IMG/VR virus record: IMGVR_UViG_3300035698_004441
Span: 1 to 32,073 of that record
Length of the DNA stretch: 32,073 bases
DNA from: a virus
Reading direction: 5' to 3' (one strand)
Made by a program: the position numbers and the translations under genes. A model generated the notes under the pieces. That model had not been told where the DNA came from. It was given only the letters and a program-made list of their open reading frames with translations, and made no database searches. Every line of letters starts with the position of its first letter. Positions within the stretch are counted from its first letter, which is position 1. Shown one piece after another: positions 12,466 to 30,806 of the stretch.

Positions 12466-12913
12466 GGGGCCGAATGGCATTTGACATACGGTAGTTCATA
12501 TTGAGTAAGCATGTGGTGTCCGCCTTGAGACACGTTAATAAAGAGGGGCAATGCTATAACAGGCAACATTGTTAACAGGGCCGTTGAGGCCACTCTTAAT
12601 GTCGTACGATCTATCGCTCCAGTAGCGATGGGTTATGAAGCTGGAGAGCTTCGCCTAGCGGCCTAAGAGCTGAGGACCGTCGGACCAAGTTCGGCACCTC
12701 GTAGAAAAAAACTCAAAGCCGTCGAGGTCGATACCAACGGGATATAAAACGGAACAGTTCGGAGTATCACATATACTTCGATAGTTGTGGGGCATGAAGC
12801 ATAAGTCCTTGTGATAAATTGTGATAATTTGCAGGTGTAAGAAAAACCTGATAAACATGTAGAAAACCGATTTGATACAGTATTGGACGAGGGTTCGAAA
12901 CCCTCCGGCTCCA
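12466..12913 (+). ncRNA. ssrA: transfer-messenger RNA (tmRNA)
   Basis: tmRNA with SmpB rescues stalled ribosomes and tags the nascent chain for proteolysis. The 5' GGGGCCG (12466-12472) pairs over 7 bp with CGGCTCC (12906-12912), with one G-U pair; A12913 is the discriminator. A canonical T arm GAGGG-TTCGAAA-CCCTC lies at 12889-12905. The 5' part keeps tmRNA-like TTGACATACGG and AAGCATGTGGTG blocks; CATGT can pair with ACATG near 12854. A tag frame runs to TAA 12664-12666, encoding GYEAGELRLAA from 12631, or two codons more (A-M) from 12625. It ends in the typical LAA. The 3' CCA is only partly encoded (ACCG). The length of about 448 nt is above the E. coli 363. Confidence 0.88.
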
Positions 12914-12950
12914 CCGGAGCTGTTTTGTACCTTTTTTCTAAATATATTTC

Positions 12951-12960
12951 GATATATAAA
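12951..12960 (+). promoter_or_regulatory. GATATATAAA motif upstream of GIY-YIG gene
   Basis: The same core as the other late-like motifs lies 15 nt before the ATG at 12976, in the gap between tmRNA and the endonuclease gene. The gap also has a T-rich stretch (12931-12938) that could end the tmRNA transcript. Confidence 0.35.
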
Positions 12961-12975
12961 GAAAAAAGGTATACG

Positions 12976-13572
12976 ATGGCGAGAAAACCCAAAAAATACC
13001 ATTACATTTATAAAACAACTTGTAAAGTAAATGGTAAGTATTATGTAGGAATGCATAGTACAGATAATTTAGATGATGGATATTTAGGTTCGGGTACATA
13101 TCTTTGGCGTGTTATTAACAAATATGGCAAAGAAAACTTTGATGTGGAGATATTAGAATACTTAAATACACGAAATGAATTAAAAGAAAGAGAGGCGGAA
13201 CTAGTCAATGAACAATTTATCGGAGATTTATTATGTATGAATTTGAAACCCGGTGGCTATGGCGGGTTTAATTCTAAAGAACATCAAATTAAGTGTTCAA
13301 CAGCAGGAAATGTTGGTTATGTTAACAAATTAAAAACCGATCCAAACTTTAAGATTAAGGTTAGCGCCAACACATCAAGCAGAAATCGAAAAATGTGGGA
13401 AGATCCAGAATATAGAGAATATATGATGGAACATTGTGGTAACTCAACAACCGGAAAAATTTGCATAAATAATAAAGTGCAAAATAAATTTATCCTACCA
13501 ACAGAGTTAGAAGAAATGGTAAATCTCGGATGGAAACGAGGTAGAAAAACAAAAGAATCAACGAAAAAATGA
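12976..13572 (+). CDS. GIY-YIG homing endonuclease
   Basis: The N-terminus has the GIY-YIG nuclease pattern: YHYIYKTTCKVNGKYYVGMH (residues ~8-27), then GYLGSGTYLWRVINKYGKENF with a catalytic-type Arg. The acidic residue is likely in EAELVNEQF. The middle has GGYGGFN and NUMOD3-like segments, and the C-terminus KICINNKVQNKFILPTELE resembles a DNA-binding NUMOD module. I choose ATG 12976 because the longer frame would start inside the tmRNA. The gene stands free just downstream of the tmRNA, as homing genes often do beside RNA genes. The stop overlaps the next gene (ATGA). Confidence 0.85.
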   Translation: MARKPKKYHYIYKTTCKVNGKYYVGMHSTDNLDDGYLGSGTYLWRVINKYGKENFDVEILEYLNTRNELKEREAELVNEQFIGDLLCMNLKPGGYGGFNSKEHQIKCSTAGNVGYVNKLKTDPNFKIKVSANTSSRNRKMWEDPEYREYMMEHCGNSTTGKICINNKVQNKFILPTELEEMVNLGWKRGRKTKESTKK

Positions 13573-14000
13573 ATATCAAAAATTTTACTACTATAATAGA
13601 TACTGGAAATTTCGAGGTTGAAAATGATAATATGCGTTTATGTACAGACAACTTGAGTATATCAATGAGTATGGAAGTTGTTAATGACCTTGACATAAAG
13701 AATGAACATATCTATTTAAAGTATGCGAAGTGCGCTGAATTCTATAAAATTAACTATTACTATAATAATAATTTAGTCTTTAGTAGATACTGCTTCCAAG
13801 TTATAGGCCTTTTGGATTACCCTACTTTTTATTTACCTGTACCGCTGGGACCGAAAGCTGAAGGTAAATTTTATTACAGTGAAAATAAAATCAGAAAATT
13901 GAACAACGTCTTACACGGAAACGACAGTTTTTACAATACCGGTGTAGACAAGGTTATCACATATCTTAATGGTCATGATTCAGTTATTATGGCTATTTAA
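13569..14000 (+). CDS. hypothetical protein (143 aa)
   Basis: The soluble, Tyr/Asn-rich protein starts MNIKNFTTIIDTGNFEVEND and ends GHDSVIMAI. It looks beta-rich. Its ATG overlaps the endonuclease stop, so it may have been acquired with that gene. It is more AT-rich than the flanking core genes, like the endonuclease. No family was recognised. Confidence 0.6.
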   Translation: MNIKNFTTIIDTGNFEVENDNMRLCTDNLSISMSMEVVNDLDIKNEHIYLKYAKCAEFYKINYYYNNNLVFSRYCFQVIGLLDYPTFYLPVPLGPKAEGKFYYSENKIRKLNNVLHGNDSFYNTGVDKVITYLNGHDSVIMAI

Positions 14001-14026
14001 CCGTATAAATTTAAACAAAATAAAGA

Positions 14027-14209
14027 ATGGGATTCTTTGATAATATTATAGGTGCAGCAGTGAAAACTGCACTTACGCCAGTAGCAATCGTTAAAGACGT
14101 TGTTAATGTGGGAACAGGAGAAGAAGCAGATACAACTAAGAAATTGGTTGGGTCTGCTGTAGAAGATGCAGGAGATGCATTGAATGATCTTGTAGATGGA
14201 GAATTTTAA
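14027..14209 (+). CDS. small amphipathic phage protein (60 aa)
   Basis: MGFFDNIIGAAVKTALTPVA opens a short Ala/Val/Asp-rich protein that ends DLVDGEF. Short 'MGFFD.I.GA' proteins are frequent in phages, without a known role to my knowledge. The start helix is amphipathic and may touch membranes. It overlaps the next frame (ATG 14196) by 14 bp. Confidence 0.6.
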   Translation: MGFFDNIIGAAVKTALTPVAIVKDVVNVGTGEEADTTKKLVGSAVEDAGDALNDLVDGEF

Positions 14210-14433
14210 ATTGCTTTATACCTATACAATAGAAGGCAAAAACTATTCGGTATATGGCGGTAATTTGGAAGAAATGAAAAGAGTTGCTGATATTCTTGGC
14301 TGGCCATTTCCAGAATTTCAAACATTAACAAAGTTGATAGATAAAAAAAACAATACGAAACGCATTTAAAAAATTGGTTGCCGATAAGAAAATTGTATCT
14401 TACTCTAACGGAGAGATTACTAAAAAGAATTGA
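14196..14433 (+). pseudogene. small gene broken at an A8 run, copy 1 of a paralogous pair
   Basis: The first frame (MENFKLLYTYTIEGKNYSVY... to TAA 14367-14369) is interrupted after a run of eight A (14343-14350). With one A fewer the frame would continue DKKTIRNAFKKLVADKKIVS to TGA 14431-14433, giving 78 residues. The continuation reads like real protein, so a single-base insertion or a slippage site is likely. The second copy at 14586 shares YTxxIEGxxYxVYG, EEMKRVA and PFPEF. Confidence 0.55.
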
Positions 14434-14585
14434 TCGCACAAGGCATCGAACTTGCCATGCCGATCTAAAGACGCGAAGAACACGGGTGAGTTAACCGATA
14501 CATCATAGGGAACGACTAACAATAGTTGAAACTAGGATGTTCATTAAGCAGGGAGACGGAGTTTAGTGCCTTCACACTTTTAAAA
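14434..14585 (+). other. non-coding spacer with a hairpin, possible structured RNA
   Basis: No reading frame fits. GATCG (14432-14436) pairs with CGATC about 25 nt downstream, enclosing a GGCA/TGCC stem. A second region, GAAC...GTTC with ACTA/TAGT, follows. It may be an RNA element or a remnant between the two paralogous small genes. I could not assign a known class. Confidence 0.3.
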
Positions 14586-14812
14586 ATGACGCACAAATAT
14601 ACACATGTGATAGAGGGAGAACCTATGTTGTATATGGTGCAAACATTGAGGAAATGAAAAGAGTTGCTGGATATTGCGGTTATCCGTTTCCAGAATTCTC
14701 AACATTGAATCTAAACGAAAGTAAACTACCCATAGGAAGGAACGCCTGTGAAAAAAGTATTATCTTTGCCCCAGTGGTTGGTAGTTTACGCATTACAAGG
14801 GCATGTTTCTAA
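14586..14812 (+). pseudogene. small gene broken by a 1-base loss, copy 2 of the paralogous pair
   Basis: ATG 14586 reads MTHKYTHVIEGE, then leaves frame. The neighbouring frame continues TYVVYGANIEEMKRVAGYCG and PFPEFSTLNLNESKLP. One missing base near 14617-14621 explains it. Similarity to copy 1 ends after about FSTL. The open frame to TAA 14810-14812 runs into the candidate RNA below and probably no longer encodes the original C-terminus. Confidence 0.5.
14758..14768 (+). promoter_or_regulatory. TATTATCTTTG promoter-like element
   Basis: It contains an exact TAnnTTTG match (TATCTTTG). No start codon follows; a structured, terminator-closed region does. This suggests it drives a non-coding RNA beginning near 14773. 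Confidence 0.45.
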
Positions 14813-14976
14813 TAGGGTAGCTTGCACGAGATCTCAGTTAAACCTTATTCCTTTTCGTTAGGGTACACTAGAACTCCTTAACTTTAGCCAAGTAGGTAAA
14901 TCTTGGGACTCATAATGTTCTGGCCCATATGACCAGATGGTGGAGGGCAAATCGGATAAACCGGTTAGCCCTAATT

Positions 14977-15012
14977 GAAAAGGTCGGTTAATCCCGACCT
15001 TTTCTTATTTTA
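14977..15012 (+). terminator. strong intrinsic terminator
   Basis: A perfect 11-bp stem GAAAAGGTCGG (14977-14987) with CCGACCTTTTC (14994-15004), loop of 6, is followed by a T-rich tract. It is A-flanked on the other strand, so it may be bidirectional. Confidence 0.85.
15002..15012 (+). promoter_or_regulatory. TTCTTATTTTA promoter-like element
   Basis: This variant of the TTCTTATCTTT element is embedded in the terminator tail, 5 nt before the ATG at 15018. The site seems to end one transcript and begin the next. Confidence 0.4.
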
Positions 15013-15017
15013 GCAAG

Positions 15018-15377
15018 ATGATAACTAGCATTCGAGATATAATCCAAATGGTACCGGCCTTCAGTGAGAAGATCTATCCAGTTATGCCATCAGAAGAAAT
15101 TCTGGATTCGGCAGAGAAATTTTTAGTTCAAATCCCCGCATTCTATCGGAAGATACTATCAATAGATAATGTGACCATAAACAATGGTGGTACTATCTCA
15201 TTAGATTGGACTGTAGCCCGAGAATTCGTATCTATTGAGATTGGTGCAGGGCGAGTAGGATTCTTTTGTGATATGCCGGATGGGATAAATCCAGAAGGAG
15301 TATTTGAAATCACAAATGAATGTCCCAAACCGATCGCGACTGTATTAAACAAACTTTACGGAAGAAAAGATATTTAA
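15018..15377 (+). CDS. hypothetical protein (119 aa)
   Basis: The helical N-terminal half (IRDIIQMVPAFSEKIYPVMP) is followed by a beta-rich part with INNGGTISLDWTVAREFVSI and IGAGRVGFFCDMPDG. This 'G.I.L.W......SIEIG...' arrangement is seen in many small phage and bacterial proteins of unknown role. It has its own promoter-like element right behind a terminator, so it is probably an early, separately controlled gene. Function is unknown. Confidence 0.65.
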   Translation: MITSIRDIIQMVPAFSEKIYPVMPSEEILDSAEKFLVQIPAFYRKILSIDNVTINNGGTISLDWTVAREFVSIEIGAGRVGFFCDMPDGINPEGVFEITNECPKPIATVLNKLYGRKDI

Positions 15378-17351: not shown

Positions 17352-17522
17352 ATGAGATGTAAAAAACAACATTTCGCAATTGATAAATTGGAGAACATAT
17401 CACTTTGTGGTATTGAACTCATTGCTACATCGGCAGAATTTGATCTTGATGAAGAAAAACTGATTTCAGTTAATTGTAAGAAATGTATTAAAGAGGCAAA
17501 GAAACATGGCAAAGAGAATTAG
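17352..17522 (+). CDS. small Cys-rich, zinc-ribbon-like protein
   Basis: MRCKKQHFAIDKLENISLCG and SVNCKKCIKEAKKHGKEN provide C-x4-H, C and C-x2-C groupings that could bind a zinc ion. The frame overlaps the start of rtcB by 17 bp. The same frame is open upstream to 17314 (KIYSLNSDEVGG), and the ATG just upstream at 17312 is one base out of frame behind another A5 run. The full gene may therefore start MKKIYSLNSDEVGG. Function is unknown. Confidence 0.5.
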   Translation: MRCKKQHFAIDKLENISLCGIELIATSAEFDLDEEKLISVNCKKCIKEAKKHGKEN

Positions 17523-18933
17523 AGGAAATCACTTATTGGATTTAGGATACCTTCCAGGTAGACCAGTTGGCGTAGCAATCGATGCAACTAAGAAGTTGTT
17601 GAAAAGAAACACAGTTGAGGAAGTCCTAGGTATGCTTAAGGAGGTCCTAGACGATCCCGATGCATTTTTAGAGCATGAATACCTATCTAAGGTAGCGGAA
17701 GCCATTGTAGAAGAGAAACGACCTAGAGTTGATCTACTCAGAGATGAGCCTTTACCATATGCAATCTACGGTCTTGAAGGTATCGAAAAAGGTGCTCGAG
17801 ATCAGATGGATGTTGCTATGTCATTACCTGTTTCTAGGAAAGGTGCTTTGATGCCGGATGCTCACGCTGGATATGGTTTACCAATCGGCGGAGTTCTAGC
17901 ATGTGAGAACGCAATCATTCCTTATGGTGTGGGTGTTGACATTGGATGTAGAATGTGCTTGTCCATATACGATATGGGTGACGATCGATATGTCGAAAGA
18001 AATGTTCAGACCCTTAAGAAGGCTTTGGCCGACAACACAAGGTTCGGTATGATGGGTGTTCACGAAGATCCAGTTGAACATGAAATATTTGATCGACCAA
18101 TCTTTGATGAGATCAATATACTGAAGCAGTTGAAGGATAAGGCCTGGAGACAGATCGGAACTTCTGGTGGAGGTAATCACTTCGTTGAGTTCGGTATGAT
18201 CGAGATACTTGAAGAGTCTGACCTTGGTCTTGCTCCAGGTAACTATGTTGCTGTATTGTCTCACTCAGGCTCAAGAGGTTTTGGTGCTAAGATTGCTGAT
18301 CACTATACCCGAATGGCAAAGAAGTCGAGAACTCTTCCTAGACATGCAGGACACCTTGCATGGTTGGATATGGATTCTGAAGGCGGACAGGAATATTGGA
18401 TTGCCATGAATTTGGCTTTGGATTATGCTTCGGCATGTCACCACGATATTCACAGACGTCTTAAGAAGTATCTTGGTAAGGAGCCTTTGGCGACTGTTGA
18501 GAACCACCACAACTTTGCTGCTAAGGAGATCCACGATGGTGTTGAATATATTGTCCACCGTAAAGGTGCGACTCCAGCATCAGATGGTGAGATGGGAATC
18601 ATTCCAGGAACGATGGCCGACTTTGGTTATCTCGTGAGTGGACTTGGTGATGAAAATTCACTTAGATCTGCATCTCACGGTGCTGGCCGAGCTATGTCGA
18701 GAACTGTTGCCAAAAACACATTCTCTGGTAAGTATGCTAAGGACTACTTAAAAGAGCGAGGAATTACATTACTTGGAGGAGGTGTCGATGAACATCCTGA
18801 AGCATACAAGAAGATCGATGAAGTGATGGCACACCAAACTGATCTTGTTAAACCAATTGGTAGATTTCACCCGAAAGTTGTTCGCATGGCGGACGATGAT
18901 CCTGATGCTAAGAAACCATGGGAGAAGAAATAG
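17506..18933 (+). CDS. rtcB: RNA ligase RtcB
   Basis: RtcB joins RNA 2',3'-cyclic phosphate or 3'-phosphate ends to 5'-OH ends using GTP and Mn2+, and so repairs tRNAs or rRNA cut by ribotoxins. Family signatures are clear: MPDAHAGYGLPIGGVLA, the metal-binding cysteine in VDIGCRM, GTSGGGNHFVEFG, SHSGSRGFG, ENHHNFAA and HRKGATPA. The guanylate-accepting His lies in ASHGAGRAMSR. The length of 475 residues is normal and the frame intact. The start at 17506 overlaps the small Cys-rich gene. In a phage its likely role is to reverse anticodon-nuclease defences. No RtcA or archease was seen here. The C-terminus KKPWEKK overlaps the next gene's start. Confidence 0.95.
   Translation: MAKRIRGNHLLDLGYLPGRPVGVAIDATKKLLKRNTVEEVLGMLKEVLDDPDAFLEHEYLSKVAEAIVEEKRPRVDLLRDEPLPYAIYGLEGIEKGARDQMDVAMSLPVSRKGALMPDAHAGYGLPIGGVLACENAIIPYGVGVDIGCRMCLSIYDMGDDRYVERNVQTLKKALADNTRFGMMGVHEDPVEHEIFDRPIFDEINILKQLKDKAWRQIGTSGGGNHFVEFGMIEILEESDLGLAPGNYVAVLSHSGSRGFGAKIADHYTRMAKKSRTLPRHAGHLAWLDMDSEGGQEYWIAMNLALDYASACHHDIHRRLKKYLGKEPLATVENHHNFAAKEIHDGVEYIVHRKGATPASDGEMGIIPGTMADFGYLVSGLGDENSLRSASHGAGRAMSRTVAKNTFSGKYAKDYLKERGITLLGGGVDEHPEAYKKIDEVMAHQTDLVKPIGRFHPKVVRMADDDPDAKKPWEKK
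18911..18932 (+). repeat. 22-bp direct repeat at a gene junction, copy 1
   Basis: A 22-bp sequence starting AGAAACCATGGGAGAAG recurs exactly at 19051-19072. Each copy encodes the KPWEKK C-terminus of one gene and, in another frame, the MGEEI start of the next. Confidence 0.9.
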
Positions 18934-19723: not shown

Positions 19724-20938
19724 ATGAGAAACTACATGAGAAACATCAGTTGGTATAAGGAATTAGACCCGTATCTTCATATACTGAAGCGGGTTGAAAA
19801 GTGGGTGGGAACATCTAACTTATTGGAGGTGTTGTCTGCTTGGGATCAACCAGAAAGACACTACCATAATCTTGACCATATGATTAAGATGTTTGATCAA
19901 TTTAATGAATGGTTCGATTGGAATACAGATCAGATACCAACAGAAACCCTTCAAACTGGGTTTGATGCTTTGGAAAAACAAGCAGATATTATGGCTTGTG
20001 CAATTGTATATCATGACGCCGTTTATAATCCTTGTGCTGAAGGCAAAGACAACGAACAGCATTCTATAGAATTATGGCAAGAACATGTCAAATTCAGAAA
20101 AGAAGTGATTGTTAAACATTTGAAACAACCAACTGATAATGAACTATTGACGCATAATCTTTCAGTTGCATCTTTAATTGACGCCACAAAAGATCATACG
20201 GATTTAGGAGAACCTGGAACATTACAACGAATATTCATTGAATGGGATCTTAAGAATCTTATTTCATCAGATTTAGGTCAATTGATTAGATCTGAGAATA
20301 AGGTCATGAAGGAATACCAGTTCTATGATTATGATCTATATCGAGTAGGCAAAGTTGCATTACTCGAAACGTTCGTACCAGTTTGTAAAAAACTGAATCC
20401 TGATACTGCGATTGAAGGATTGATTGATTACATTAAAAATAGGGTATTGAACATCGGTGTCTATGCTGGTACGTTCTACCCAATGCATGTAGGACACTAC
20501 AGCATTCTTAAAAGGGCTGAGAAGGTCTTTGATAAAGTCATTGTAGCTTGTGGACATAATCCAACGAAAGATCATGACCTGCTACCATTAGGGGCTCAAA
20601 TAACTTTGAACGAAGTATTGCCTTATCATCAAGTTACAAGTTTCCCTGGATTACTGACAGAGTTTATTGCGTCAAAAAGAAGTGCTAATACAAATGTTAC
20701 CTTAATTAAAGGTCTTGGAAGATACCAAGATTTCGAGGAAGAAAAAATGCAAATGAGATATATGGAAGACTTTGATCCAGAGATCAATGTCGCCTATTTC
20801 ATTTCCGATAGAAAGTTCGATTATGTCTCATCTAGTGGTGCAAGAATAATTGAACAATTTGATGAAACCGCGTATAATAAATACGCGTTAGGGGAGTGGC
20901 CAGACGCAGAGGTCAAAATGAAAAGTGATGTGTCATGA
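19724..20938 (+). CDS. HD-domain phosphohydrolase fused to CoaD-like adenylyltransferase
   Basis: Residues 1 to about 230 resemble metal-dependent HD-superfamily hydrolases: RHYHNLDHMIKMFDQF near residue 47 and the HD pair in AIVYHDAVYNP near residue 97. From residue ~245 comes a nucleotidyltransferase of the HxGH class: GVYAGTFYPMHVGHYSILKR, IKGLGRYQDFEEEKMQ and YVSSSGARIIE. The last two correspond to CoaD (phosphopantetheine adenylyltransferase) blocks 'RGLR...DFEYE.Q' and 'SSSxVRE', so the domain is closer to CoaD than to NMN adenylyltransferase. The pairing suggests a nucleotide or CoA/NAD metabolite is both hydrolysed and adenylylated. A second ATG at 19736 is possible. It overlaps the next gene by ATGA. 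Confidence 0.8.
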   Translation: MRNYMRNISWYKELDPYLHILKRVEKWVGTSNLLEVLSAWDQPERHYHNLDHMIKMFDQFNEWFDWNTDQIPTETLQTGFDALEKQADIMACAIVYHDAVYNPCAEGKDNEQHSIELWQEHVKFRKEVIVKHLKQPTDNELLTHNLSVASLIDATKDHTDLGEPGTLQRIFIEWDLKNLISSDLGQLIRSENKVMKEYQFYDYDLYRVGKVALLETFVPVCKKLNPDTAIEGLIDYIKNRVLNIGVYAGTFYPMHVGHYSILKRAEKVFDKVIVACGHNPTKDHDLLPLGAQITLNEVLPYHQVTSFPGLLTEFIASKRSANTNVTLIKGLGRYQDFEEEKMQMRYMEDFDPEINVAYFISDRKFDYVSSSGARIIEQFDETAYNKYALGEWPDAEVKMKSDVS

Positions 20939-27766: not shown

Positions 27767-28156
27767 ATGATTTTAACGGTCTGGTATACGATAACATATA
27801 GTGCTCTCATAATTTTTGGGTGTGTTATGGTTTTCGGAGTCATGGCTGTTCTGCTTGTTGACTCTCGTAATTCTCGTGTTAAACGACAAACAGAGACACA
27901 ACAAAAAGAGATTCTCCAAGCTCGAAGGCTTGATGCAGAATTACATACATTACGATGGCAAGATACACTTAGACAAGATCTTGAAGCACCAGAAATAATC
28001 AGCAAAGAAGATCTAGATACCAAGCTCAAAAAGTTAGAGTTTTACGATGTAAAGTTAGTGGATGCTCTCGATAAAGAGGATTACGAATCTGCTGCCGTAT
28101 TAAGAGATGAGATTGAGAAATTGAAGCAAGAACTAAATACAGAAAAAGATGCTTAA
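27767..28156 (+). CDS. membrane-anchored protein with a UVR motif
   Basis: The N-terminal membrane helix (residues ~9-31, YSALIIFGCVMVFGVMAVLL) is followed by a basic, then helical cytoplasmic part. The last ~35 residues (KLVDALDKEDYESAAVLRDE, IEKLKQEL) match the UVR motif of UvrB, UvrC and McsA-type proteins, a helical hairpin for protein-protein contact. A membrane-tethered UVR could bind a host repair or protease partner. It overlaps the prs-like gene by 8 bp. Confidence 0.65.
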   Translation: MILTVWYTITYSALIIFGCVMVFGVMAVLLVDSRNSRVKRQTETQQKEILQARRLDAELHTLRWQDTLRQDLEAPEIISKEDLDTKLKKLEFYDVKLVDALDKEDYESAAVLRDEIEKLKQELNTEKDA

Positions 28157-29120
28157 CGAATCGACACTTAGGGTTAACATGGGTGTACTTCCTCCAGCCT
28201 ATTGGGGAAAACAAGAAACAGCTTTAACCTATCAACAAAGTATCTTTCCTGGTGGAGAGGTGTTTGTCAGATTAAACCATCCTGAACAAGTTGATGAAAA
28301 AGATATTATTATCAGTGTTGCTCTTTTAGATTCAGCTGATATATTGAAGCTGATTATGATGGTGAATGCTCTGAGAGCTGCTGGAGCTTCGAAAATCTAT
28401 CTCTATATGCCATACGTTCCTTATGCCCGACAAGATCGAGTATGTACAGAAGGAGAAGCAAATGGTATCCAAGCATTCGGTGACCTGATCAATGATATGA
28501 ACTTTACAAAAGTGTTCGTACTTGATCCACATTCAAACGTTACTGAAACGGCTATCCGAAATATTCGCAGCACTACGAATCATCATTTCGTCCGAAGAGT
28601 TGCCGTTGATCTTTATAGTAAAGGATACAATAAAGAAAACACAATCTTTGTTTCACCAGATGCCGGAGCCAAGAGTAAGATGAAAAATTTGATCTCCTGG
28701 TTATATCCAATTTTTGGTTTCACAAATGTCTTTGGTGATAAGGTCAGAGATCAAGCAACAACAGAAATTCTTTATACATCAGTAGACGATCCTGATGATA
28801 TGATCGCAGGTAAGACTTGTGTTGTCGTGGATGATATTTGTGACGGAGGTCGAACATTCATTGAACTCGCGAAAGTTCTTTTGGAAAAAGGTGCATCTGA
28901 AGTTATACTGATTGTAACCTTTGGAATATTCAGTCAGGGCTTATCTCCATTTAAAGGACTCGTGACTAAGATTTATTCTACAGACGTTTTAAGCAAACCT
29001 GAAAGTATTCCTGGTGTTGAATACTTTCGTATGCCGATCACTATTTTGAAAGATCCAAAAACATGTGATCCAATTCCACCTTCTGCACTTATGCCAGCAG
29101 GAACTATTGGCACACTATAA
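28149..29120 (+). CDS. prs: ribose-phosphate pyrophosphokinase homologue (Prs, or ADP-ribose-acting Adps type)
   Basis: PRPP synthetase adds pyrophosphate from ATP to ribose 5-phosphate. The family signatures are FPGGEVFVRL (residue ~37), YMPYVPYARQDR (~85-96) and the ribose-phosphate loop VVVDDICDGGRTF (~225-237). The length of 323 residues is normal. The stretch DAGAKSKM replaces the usual 'D.GG..RA', a divergence also to be expected in a homologue with another substrate. Next to nadV, it supplies PRPP for NMN synthesis, or as an Adps-type enzyme it would pyrophosphorylate ADP-ribose as in the phage NARP1 pathway. Sequence reading alone cannot separate the two. Confidence 0.85.
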   Translation: MLNESTLRVNMGVLPPAYWGKQETALTYQQSIFPGGEVFVRLNHPEQVDEKDIIISVALLDSADILKLIMMVNALRAAGASKIYLYMPYVPYARQDRVCTEGEANGIQAFGDLINDMNFTKVFVLDPHSNVTETAIRNIRSTTNHHFVRRVAVDLYSKGYNKENTIFVSPDAGAKSKMKNLISWLYPIFGFTNVFGDKVRDQATTEILYTSVDDPDDMIAGKTCVVVDDICDGGRTFIELAKVLLEKGASEVILIVTFGIFSQGLSPFKGLVTKIYSTDVLSKPESIPGVEYFRMPITILKDPKTCDPIPPSALMPAGTIGTL

Positions 29121-29761
29121 TGAATTTCTTTCGTTACATAGCATGTTTGATTGGGTTTCATAAAACCCCTGTTCCAATGTTGATTGAGACAGATTTTGCT
29201 ATTCATAGCAGAGGTTGTCCAGCATGTGGAATAGCATTTGGTTTTGGTGCACTCAAGAAAGTTCCAAAGCCACCAGGTGAAATGACAGATGATTCTTGGA
29301 ATGTTTATCAGCAAGCACATCTTAATGACGTAAGGGCAAAGATTCAAACTGAGATTGATGAAGCAAATAGACCTCCAATTCCAACTACGTTAGATGAAGC
29401 GATCAATACTATCCGTATTCTGAACAAAGAACATATTCCAGCGATCATGGGAATGGACGAAGATACGTTCAGTGCATCAGGTCATTCTTATGCTGGTCGT
29501 TGGATGAGAAATGAATGGTATCTTTGGTGGCAACCAAATCATTCATATGAGACATGGCCTAAAGAAGAACCACCGTTGAATAAATGGTTTACGTCAATAG
29601 GAATAACTCATGCAGATGATCGAAGTGGAATTATCATGACTTGTTTTTATCGTGATGTTTGGGGTCTTGACAGAGATCTCAACGGTCAGATTGAACATTA
29701 TAAAAAGCATTGGAAGAACGCCGGATTTGAAGATGGCATTTACAAAAACGAAACCAAATGA
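29120..29761 (+). CDS. hypothetical protein between prs and nadV (213 aa)
   Basis: Near the N-terminus GCPACGIAFGFG holds a C-x2-C pair. The C-terminal half has TLDEAINTIRILNKEHIPAI, ASGHSYAGRWMRNEWYLWWQ and THADDRSGIIMTCFYRDVWG. This reads like the small 'DUF6794-like' proteins with 'H..GRW.RN.W.LW' and 'GI.H.DD.SGII'; the family name is from memory. It is soluble and Trp-rich. Overlap with prs (1 bp) and the next gene (4 bp) places it in the NAD-synthesis operon, so a metabolic accessory role is possible. Confidence 0.65.
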   Translation: MNFFRYIACLIGFHKTPVPMLIETDFAIHSRGCPACGIAFGFGALKKVPKPPGEMTDDSWNVYQQAHLNDVRAKIQTEIDEANRPPIPTTLDEAINTIRILNKEHIPAIMGMDEDTFSASGHSYAGRWMRNEWYLWWQPNHSYETWPKEEPPLNKWFTSIGITHADDRSGIIMTCFYRDVWGLDRDLNGQIEHYKKHWKNAGFEDGIYKNETK

Positions 29762-29967
29762 GTTTGACACCAAAAAGCGTTGTTACAGAATATTCACCTG
29801 ATGAAGTAAAGAAATTGTTTGCTAAGGAATTAGGTGTTGATCAAAGTGAAATAGATTTGAACTTTGTGATCAATGATACTTCACCTGATCGTCCTGGACA
29901 TTCACCTTCTTATAAGGTGACCGCAATCAAAGTAAGAACAGAACCAAGTAATAAATTCGACATATAA
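29758..29967 (+). CDS. small hypothetical protein (69 aa)
   Basis: MSLTPKSVVTEYSPDEVKKL leads to a small soluble protein with LGVDQSEIDLNFVINDTSPD and a C-terminal strand (PSYKVTAIKVRTE). The ATG overlaps the previous stop. It lies 11 bp before nadV. Small proteins with the same 'I.F.I.D...D....' layout are common in phages. Function is unknown. Confidence 0.6.
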   Translation: MSLTPKSVVTEYSPDEVKKLFAKELGVDQSEIDLNFVINDTSPDRPGHSPSYKVTAIKVRTEPSNKFDI

Positions 29968-29978
29968 ACAATTACATC

Positions 29979-30806
29979 ATGAACTTTTTAGAACTTTATT
30001 GGACAGACGTTTATAAGACAGGACACAAACCAATGCTTCCACCTGGAAGTACATTGATGTTCTCAAACTCAACACCTCGAAGCGGTCGGCTATCGAACGT
30101 TCCTGGATCAGAAGGAATTATCGTTGCCGGTGCTCAGATGATGATGAGGAAATTACAGGATGATTGGTACAACAATTTCTTTATGAGACCAGTGTCTGAG
30201 ATCGAACAATTCGGTAAAGACATCACAGAGATGCTTATGTTGGACAAACCATATGATGTAAGTCATATGATTCAGTTCCATGCATTGGGTTATCTTCCGT
30301 TAGAGGTTCGTGCCATTGAAGAAGGTACATTCCTTCCTTATAAGATTCCAATGACCACGATTGTTAATACTCATCCAATTGATGGGACAATCGTTGATTG
30401 GTTGGTGAACTACCTGGAGTCACCTAATTCTGCTGAATCTTGGTTAACGCCAACTTCTGCCACTACTGCGTTTGCTTACAAGAAGAATGGTATGGCGAAC
30501 ATCAAAAAGACTGACCCAGAGAACATGTGGTTCTTGGATTACAAATACCATGATTTCTCAATGAGAGGAATGGGTGGTAAATCTGCAATTGTAAATTCGG
30601 GTCTTGGTTTTGCAATGGTAAGCAAAGGATCAGATTCACTTCCTGTTATCCCAGCAGCAAGAAAGTATTATGACGAAGATGGGGTTCCGATCTTTTCTGT
30701 TATTGCATCAGAGCACGCTATTATGTGTGCCAATATTGGTGTATTTGGTGAACGTATTAAGCAAGGCCTGGAAGATGTTCTCGTTTCAGAATATAATTCT
30801 TTTTAA
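29979..30806 (+). CDS. nadV: nicotinamide phosphoribosyltransferase NadV, N-terminal part (interrupted gene)
   Basis: NadV converts nicotinamide and PRPP to NMN. This frame holds the N-terminal half: FLELYWTDVYKTGHKPMLPP, then LDYKYHDFSMRGMGG (~residue 190) and the catalytic-His block VIASEHAIMC (~243-250). It then leaves homology and stops (SEYNSF) because an 866-bp insertion begins at about 30795. Joining at the flanking CAGAATAT repeats restores SEY-ATIKKMLNDFPTGIISLV in frame with the part at 31625. The RPDSGDP phosphate-binding block lies only in the second part, so the two pieces must assemble or the insert must be removed for activity. Namat-type homologues use ADP-ribose pyrophosphate instead. 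Confidence 0.87.
   Translation: MNFLELYWTDVYKTGHKPMLPPGSTLMFSNSTPRSGRLSNVPGSEGIIVAGAQMMMRKLQDDWYNNFFMRPVSEIEQFGKDITEMLMLDKPYDVSHMIQFHALGYLPLEVRAIEEGTFLPYKIPMTTIVNTHPIDGTIVDWLVNYLESPNSAESWLTPTSATTAFAYKKNGMANIKKTDPENMWFLDYKYHDFSMRGMGGKSAIVNSGLGFAMVSKGSDSLPVIPAARKYYDEDGVPIFSVIASEHAIMCANIGVFGERIKQGLEDVLVSEYNSF

Follow-up and report, generated by a model that had tools for sequence, protein, structure and literature searches.

A one-piece phage tmRNA with a 34-codon tag frame and a SegB-type homing endonuclease gene directly behind it

Few phages carry tmRNA, as a sequence-only reading of the DNA studied here had stated; in the survey by Buchholz et al. 2022 (PMC9004378), 402 phage genomes out of 18,146 have one. 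Phage tmRNAs are described for Bacillus phage G and for mycobacteriophages such as Bxz1 and Wildcat (PMC4131195, in the part available), and the OM43 phage Melnitz is described, in the accessible part of its source, as having a permuted two-piece form. In the accessible part of the report on huge phages (Al-Shayeb et al. 2020, PMC7162821), complete, phage-borne tmRNAs detected with ARAGORN are found, as well as SmpB. T4 segB lies between tRNA genes and has RNA structure over its start (PMC2988022, in the part available), and SegB has been reported to amplify tRNA-Tyr and so to defeat Septu (Chihara et al. 2026, PMC13096335, likewise in part). The occurrence of tmRNA in phages, of SmpB in huge phages and of SegB next to tRNAs has thus been published before. 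The window, by which we mean the whole 32,073-base stretch of viral DNA that was analysed, carries a tmRNA that is one-piece, unlike that of Melnitz, and complete and phage-borne like those of the huge phages, from which it differs in having a homing endonuclease gene directly behind it. A long tag, about three times as long as usual, and this endonuclease set it apart from the described phage tmRNAs, and no description of long phage tmRNA tags or of a tmRNA-endonuclease pair was found among the results listed for the literature searched, which largely excluded subscription journals. We favour, at a probability of roughly 0.78, a phage one-piece tmRNA that rescues ribosomes by adding a 34-residue tag, with a SegB-type endonuclease behind it.

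The window is a fragment of a T4-like phage related to uncultured huge phages. Its contig carries gp32-, primase-, UvsY- and UvsW-type-helicase-like genes, and the first 25 kb had no match to phage records at near-DNA level. The best phage-record relatives of the helicase were uncultured phages of 462-735 kb and Lak phages, in the order LR756500 (39.7%), 634-735 kb phages and the Lak phages of Prevotella; among the matches listed, the helicase of a 246-kb contig, G006, was 42% identical over its best segment. As a single query the helicase found no match in viral_contigs, and the helicase alignment (A1) was built without the Lak helicase. Six of the 25 listed helicase records were used for the huge-phage searches, and RF00023 was over its cut-off in three of these six; LR756500, the best phage-record match, has a tmRNA. 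Among 45 helicase-relative records, many of them short, that were chosen from 80 loci, a tmRNA over the cut-off was found in one (G006); the tmRNA is thus not a constant member of this group's gene set. In the tmRNA of LR756501 (locus L015, 1272-1844) a match to a group I intron, scoring 96.1 bits, begins in the T-arm region; group I introns in the T loop of tmRNA are known (PMC11915505, in the part available).

Elsewhere in the window are PRPP-synthetase-like, nicotinamide phosphoribosyltransferase and nucleotidyltransferase-like genes (28149-30806 and 19724-20938), together a possible phage NAD+ salvage set; such sets serve in counter-defence against NAD+-depleting immunity. An RtcB-type RNA ligase (17506-18933; phrog_1075, E 4.4e-91) would fit a role in mending cleaved RNAs, tRNA among them, during infection. 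Between 14206 and 15000 a short coding stretch (..EEMKRVA..PFPEF..) was seen by eye to occur twice, with several hundred apparently non-coding bases behind the copies. No Rfam family scored above its gathering score in this repeat region, and the Rfam matches at 12900-15100 (BSnc120, STnc390 and others), all below their gathering scores, were taken as chance.

The proposal of a tmRNA, made from the letters alone, was borne out by a covariance-model search. RF00023 matches 12466-12916 on the plus strand over the complete model (1-374) with 81.3 bits, against a gathering score of 47 (E 2.8e-30), and is the sole match in the window at or over any gathering score. The whole-RNA fold had a z of -2.67 against dinucleotide shuffles. 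The tRNA-like domain (Table 1) comprises a 7-bp acceptor stem, in which all seven pairs are formed including a G3.U70 wobble, and a T arm; the anticodon arm is absent. Both the acceptor stem and the canonical T arm had been claimed earlier and were found, and the gene end had been placed correctly at the discriminator base A. Next to this base stands CCG; the gene thus does not encode the 3' CCA, which would have to be added after processing. A PK1-like element was located, and 3' of the tag, stems compatible with PK2-PK4 were enumerated in a region most of which the RF00023 model leaves unaligned. The 5' sequence diverges from the consensus, with AUUUGACAU instead of AUUCGACGG. The window tmRNA is real, complete, phage-borne and of a known kind.

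Table 1. Features of the tmRNA and endonuclease locus, in window coordinates.
Feature	Position	Strand	Basis
tmRNA (ssrA), one-piece, mature part without CCA	12466..12913	+	RF00023, whole-RNA fold
Acceptor stem, 5' strand GGGGCCG	12466..12472	+	pairs with 12906-12912 CGGCUCC
PK1-like stem 1, GUGUC 12516-12520 / GACAC 12529-12533	within 12516..12549	+	enumeration, exact
PK1-like possible stem 2, GCCUU / GGGGC	12522-12526 / 12545-12549	+	by eye, two wobbles
Tag frame, resume GGC, 34 codons + UAA: GNIVNRAVEATLNVVRSIAPVAMGYEAGELRLAA	12562..12666	+	translation; covariance alignments
T arm GAGGGTTCGAAACCCTC (RNA GAGGGUUCGAAACCCUC)	12889..12905	+	RF00023 alignment, pairing list
Acceptor 3' strand + discriminator A (12913)	12906..12913	+	sequence, pairing list
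Hairpin in tmRNA-endonuclease gap, -25.4 kcal/mol	12919..12980	+	fold
SegB/SegE-type homing endonuclease of 198 aa (GIY-YIG)	12976..13572	+	phrog_314, PF19835, PF01541, alignment A3

In the RF00023 alignment GGC 12562 stands opposite the consensus GCa, a column that we take to be the resume column and that resembles the resume region of E. coli. With this column as the resume point, the tag starts at GGC 12562 and runs for 34 codons to a UAA at 12664-12666, its end being hydrophobic and rich in Ala. The GGC is directly preceded by AUAACA, which puts an A at -4; an A is found at this position in 60 of 60 long-tag family entries, the window being counted there twice, as itself and as L001. In LR756500 a GGC occupies the same RF00023 column, and ARAGORN reads GNNAEMRMAA from that GGC, a tag of 10 aa against 34 aa in the window. 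The frame ending GELRLAA-stop that had been pointed out earlier is present, and a degenerate pattern for it occurs once in the window and in none of 100 shuffles. ARAGORN misreads the window tmRNA: its match spans 12577-12915 only, and because the 5' half of the gene is missed it gives the tag VGHEA, which was rejected. By length alone, the window tag can be likened to that of the mollicute Mesoplasma florum, which is long and degraded by Lon.

A long-tag class was defined here by a tag of at least 20 aa, a usual start of G/D-N/D/E and a resume point about 90-96 nt from the 5' end. The window tmRNA, with 34 aa, the start GNIVN and an offset of 96 nt (90-96 in its relatives), falls within it. 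A pattern combining the 5' end and resume region found nine viral contigs, eight with GNILNKMALVGLVRQDELVNVA (one of them truncated by its locus end) and one with GNNAEMRMAA. The first exact 3' pattern gave no match; the productive patterns were those for the resume region and for the H2/T-arm region, and the latter 3' pattern found at least 120 loci in viral contigs. The window and 129 loci made up 130 sources, in which 5' ends were paired with 3' ends by a script; 113 yielded a tmRNA in this way and the other 17 no full one. Long tags were read in 58 of the 113, window included, short ones in 48, and seven were left unassigned; the script set the long class at 17 aa or more, the shortest actually found being 20 aa, and, since it picks whichever qualifying frame is longest, some of the long tags may be over-read. 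The commonest long tag was GNVLNKMETLGLVRESEVTVA with its variants. G006 has a 29-aa tag, GESFVNADGKVFYMDTTAVSYDEPVLMAA, which was called by ARAGORN itself, the tag of LR756504 is DNVNSFEQSILNELFAPVEMAVAA, the frame of Lak-B5 ends DDEIEFRMAA, and the 735-kb LR756501 has a long frame in a tmRNA scoring just 21.1 bits. Across the residue-pattern family ARAGORN reported a tmRNA in 16 of 59 loci and the tag as read here in 3 of 59. Judged by their sequences, long tags of 20-34 aa are recurrent in viral contigs, and mostly start G-N/D-V/I and end in A.

The endonuclease gene starts 62 nt 3' of the tmRNA, and its product matched phrog_314 (E 1.9e-38), PF19835 (25.9 bits, cut-off 25) and PF01541 (22.6 bits, exactly at the cut-off of 22.6). 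Like SegB of T4 and T6 it is a free-standing GIY-YIG protein, and it is 39% identical over 150 residues to SegB of RB33, which lies 41 nt behind a tRNA gene. The neighbour of SegB in the available part of PMC13096335 is a tRNA, whereas that of the window endonuclease is a tmRNA. Compared with five relatives in alignment A3, the window protein has a linker that is shorter by about 25 residues ahead of the C-terminal end.

The 3' arm of the hairpin in the gap between the two genes contains AAAAAAGG, which is likely the ribosome site, and the start codon of the endonuclease lies within the outer stem. Hairpins of -22.0 to -24.5 kcal/mol were found over the endonuclease start region in eight other endonuclease-bearing tmRNA loci, and six relatives that lack the endonuclease have other hairpins, most of them terminator-like, of -14.2 to -22.2; these energies carry no shuffle control, and the endonuclease-free L026 likewise reaches -22.2. 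Terminator-like matches at 12903-12922 were set aside; the region has three such sites, where shuffles predict 1.2.

Linkage of the endonuclease to the 3' ends of tmRNA and tRNA genes was observed from both sides. Where the 3' flank reached 700 nt or more, an endonuclease relative was found behind eight of 55 long-tag tmRNAs, none of 45 short-tag ones and none of the six unassigned; the 55 include the window, whose own gene lies outside the database and makes a ninth case. In the eight, tmRNA and match share a strand, and 50-54 nt separate the tmRNA from the start of the match. In a scan from the endonuclease side (alignment A3; best 80 loci, seven left out for having less than 600 nt upstream), 35 of 73 lay behind a tmRNA, 34 behind a tRNA of many isotypes and four behind neither, three of these four showing a T arm and acceptor by eye. 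Tags of the 35 were long in 28 cases, 8 aa in one and not read in six; the two linkage counts are not independent, since L473, L475, L480, L523 and L541 are on contigs from the 3'-pattern search, and near-identical contigs are common in both. A 77-row endonuclease tree, from which one row of less than 120 aa was omitted, has at least five changes between tRNA and tmRNA labels, at least two of them forced by well-supported branches, although the bootstrap had not settled. The family has therefore probably moved between tRNA and tmRNA sites. A single origin of the tmRNA-linked endonucleases was considered and dropped; a small hand-picked tree, which left out the short matches L141 and L064, grouped them (75/56), but the larger tree did not.

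These counts bear on whether the tmRNA profits from its neighbour at all. The pair may be purely selfish, the 3' ends of tmRNA and tRNA genes being just safe docking sites with no gain for the tmRNA, and the chance of this falls only a little short of even. The family sits equally behind tRNAs and tmRNAs, as this would predict, and the endonuclease is present in L057 and absent from L087, a relative that is collinear upstream (83%). Against this, a relative of the enzyme does help its neighbour: T6 SegB amplifies the adjacent tRNA gene and so overcomes Septu (PMC13096335, in the available part).

The same part of that report gives RAWTSGAAC as the sequence that T6 SegB prefers (23 of 83 sites), and neither 'T-arm' nor 'tmRNA' occurs in its main text. 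The reverse complement, GTTCSAWTY, is in our reading the tRNA T-loop sequence. Loss of the motif from the T arms of endonuclease-bearing tmRNAs was not seen: exact matches were found in 7 of the 44 loci that have the endonuclease and in 2 of the 49 that lack it, which leaves self-protection through the T6 SegB motif unsupported. Exact matches are rare in tmRNA T arms whether or not the endonuclease is present, and the window T arm is not one. In nine endonuclease-bearing tmRNA loci (L488, L489, L524 and six others) the T arm is GAGGTTTCGATTACCTC, with U-A as the last stem pair, which is usually G53-C61.

No SmpB gene had been noticed in the window by the sequence-only reading, from which it concluded that the tmRNA would rely on host SmpB. 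A search for PF01668 likewise found none in the window, which is a fragment, nor in LR756500 or G006, and the reliance is plausible; however, SmpB is encoded in five of the six huge-phage records searched (five of seven with the window counted). It was found in one of 24 chosen tmRNA-bearing viral records, that is in 1/15 with long and 0/9 with short tags. Of 230 SmpB matches, 80 loci were kept, six of which have a long-tag-family tmRNA within flanks of at most 3 kb, and 39 of the 80 were given a whole-record search; seven of the eight tmRNAs read on SmpB-bearing contigs have long tags, the maximum being 33 aa. Both states exist among phages, and host SmpB is the likelier partner for the window phage. 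Among the matches listed for a query whose first row was Lak, the cellular SmpBs that most resemble those of phages were nearly all on Bacteroidota-named contigs, and the single best cellular row was a short contig labelled as a Roseburia MAG.

Codon-level selection was observed on the long tags of the 21-aa family, to which this comparison applies, the 34-aa tag of the window having no close relatives of its own for it. In 33 distinct 21-codon tags the pairwise differences at the three codon positions were 0.354/0.215/0.431, and 9 of 20,000 column shuffles were as extreme. For codons 1-13 the values were 0.387/0.145/0.468 (2/20,000). Because the pattern used to collect the sequences constrained residues 1-5, codons 6-13 were retested and gave 0.395/0.143/0.462 (28/20,000), and a retest with 14 sequences of less than 85% identity gave 40/20,000. 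Codons 14-21 alone showed no significant periodicity among the 33 tags (5,485/20,000); none was seen in the 36 nt upstream of the tag (0.362/0.322/0.317; 10,632/20,000) or in the 63 nt after the stop of this family.

In the reading that we favour, the tmRNA would be charged with alanine via G3.U70 and would enter, with SmpB that is probably the host's, ribosomes stalled on broken mRNA. The ribosomes would switch to GGC 12562 and add the 34-residue tag ending RLAA, after which the freed ribosomes would serve phage translation and the tagged product would be destroyed. By analogy with SegB of T4 and T6, the endonuclease may promote the inheritance, and perhaps the amplification, of the tmRNA region. 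That the molecule does not tag at all, being an SmpB-titrating decoy or a decaying gene, is decidedly unlikely. Its divergent 5' end, the lack of an encoded 3' CCA and the absence of SmpB from the window would agree with this, and a molecule like the tRNA-like-only one of mycobacteriophage DS6A, for which a decoy role is suggested, inhibits tmRNA (PMC4131195 and PMC11915505, in the parts available). However, the DS6A molecule is hardly more than a tRNA-like domain, whereas the window has a full-length RF00023 match with tag frame and stop intact, and in the related 21-aa family selection acts on the codons of the tag.

It is very unlikely that the true tag is short, with the resume point further downstream or in the VGHEA frame and the 34 codons open by chance over structured RNA. 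The ARAGORN call would point this way, as would the tags of 8 aa, ATEEVTVA among them, that it reads in several relatives, the hairpins into which the window tag region folds, and codons 14-21 of the 21-aa family, which lack a periodicity of their own. The codons that a short tag would omit are nevertheless those that carry the periodicity in that family; the covariance alignment has GGC in the column taken as the resume codon, the A at -4 is present in all 60 family entries, and the ARAGORN match lacks the 5' half of the gene.

In a Bacteroidota sample, tmRNA was found in 60 of 61 genomes. ARAGORN tags were compared at 33 loci (the 30 best-scoring of the 60 tmRNAs and three further genomes), where many, like the window tag, start with Gly and six end in RLAA or RMAA (DNNYSYRLAA and GDNFGYRMAA, for example); 32 of the 33 are 9-10 aa, unlike the window's 34, and the other is apparently spurious. 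At both its start and its end the window tag thus looks like a host tag, and in between it carries about 24 additional residues. It had been called atypical before, which does not hold for its C-terminus but does for its length; what is atypical is the 34 aa and the homing endonuclease that directly follows the gene, and both had gone unmentioned. Whether or not the tag is the cause, the earlier suggestion that phage-tagged proteins could be treated differently from host-tagged ones is a conjecture. From this and the SmpB comparison we infer that the host of the window phage belongs to the Bacteroidota. A host gene, whether from a bacterial contaminant or as the ssrA attachment-site copy of an integrated phage, is hardly credible despite the G start and RLAA end shared with Bacteroidota tags and the frequent integration of genomic islands into the tmRNA gene (PMC11915505, in the part available), as the gene is complete, the remaining contig has T4-type replication genes, no integrase was found among the 30 window proteins scanned (a subset of the ORFs), and the Bacteroidota tags are so much shorter.

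A further reading, which we hold to be doubtful, is that tmRNA and endonuclease together form a mobile counter-defence cassette, in which recognition of the T arm common to tRNA and tmRNA genes would spread and amplify a ribosome-rescuing tmRNA and the long phage-specific tag would direct products to a protease other than host ClpXP. If this were true, the tmRNA would free ribosomes after the host's defences have cleaved mRNA or tRNA. Long-tag phage tmRNAs are frequent in uncultured viruses, at 58 of the 113 assembled, and are largely misread by the standard gene finder, and the long tag offers a testable peptide signature for phage trans-translation. The link to the SegB family, which has been shown to amplify anti-defence tRNA genes, makes ribosome rescue as a phage counter-defence directly testable.
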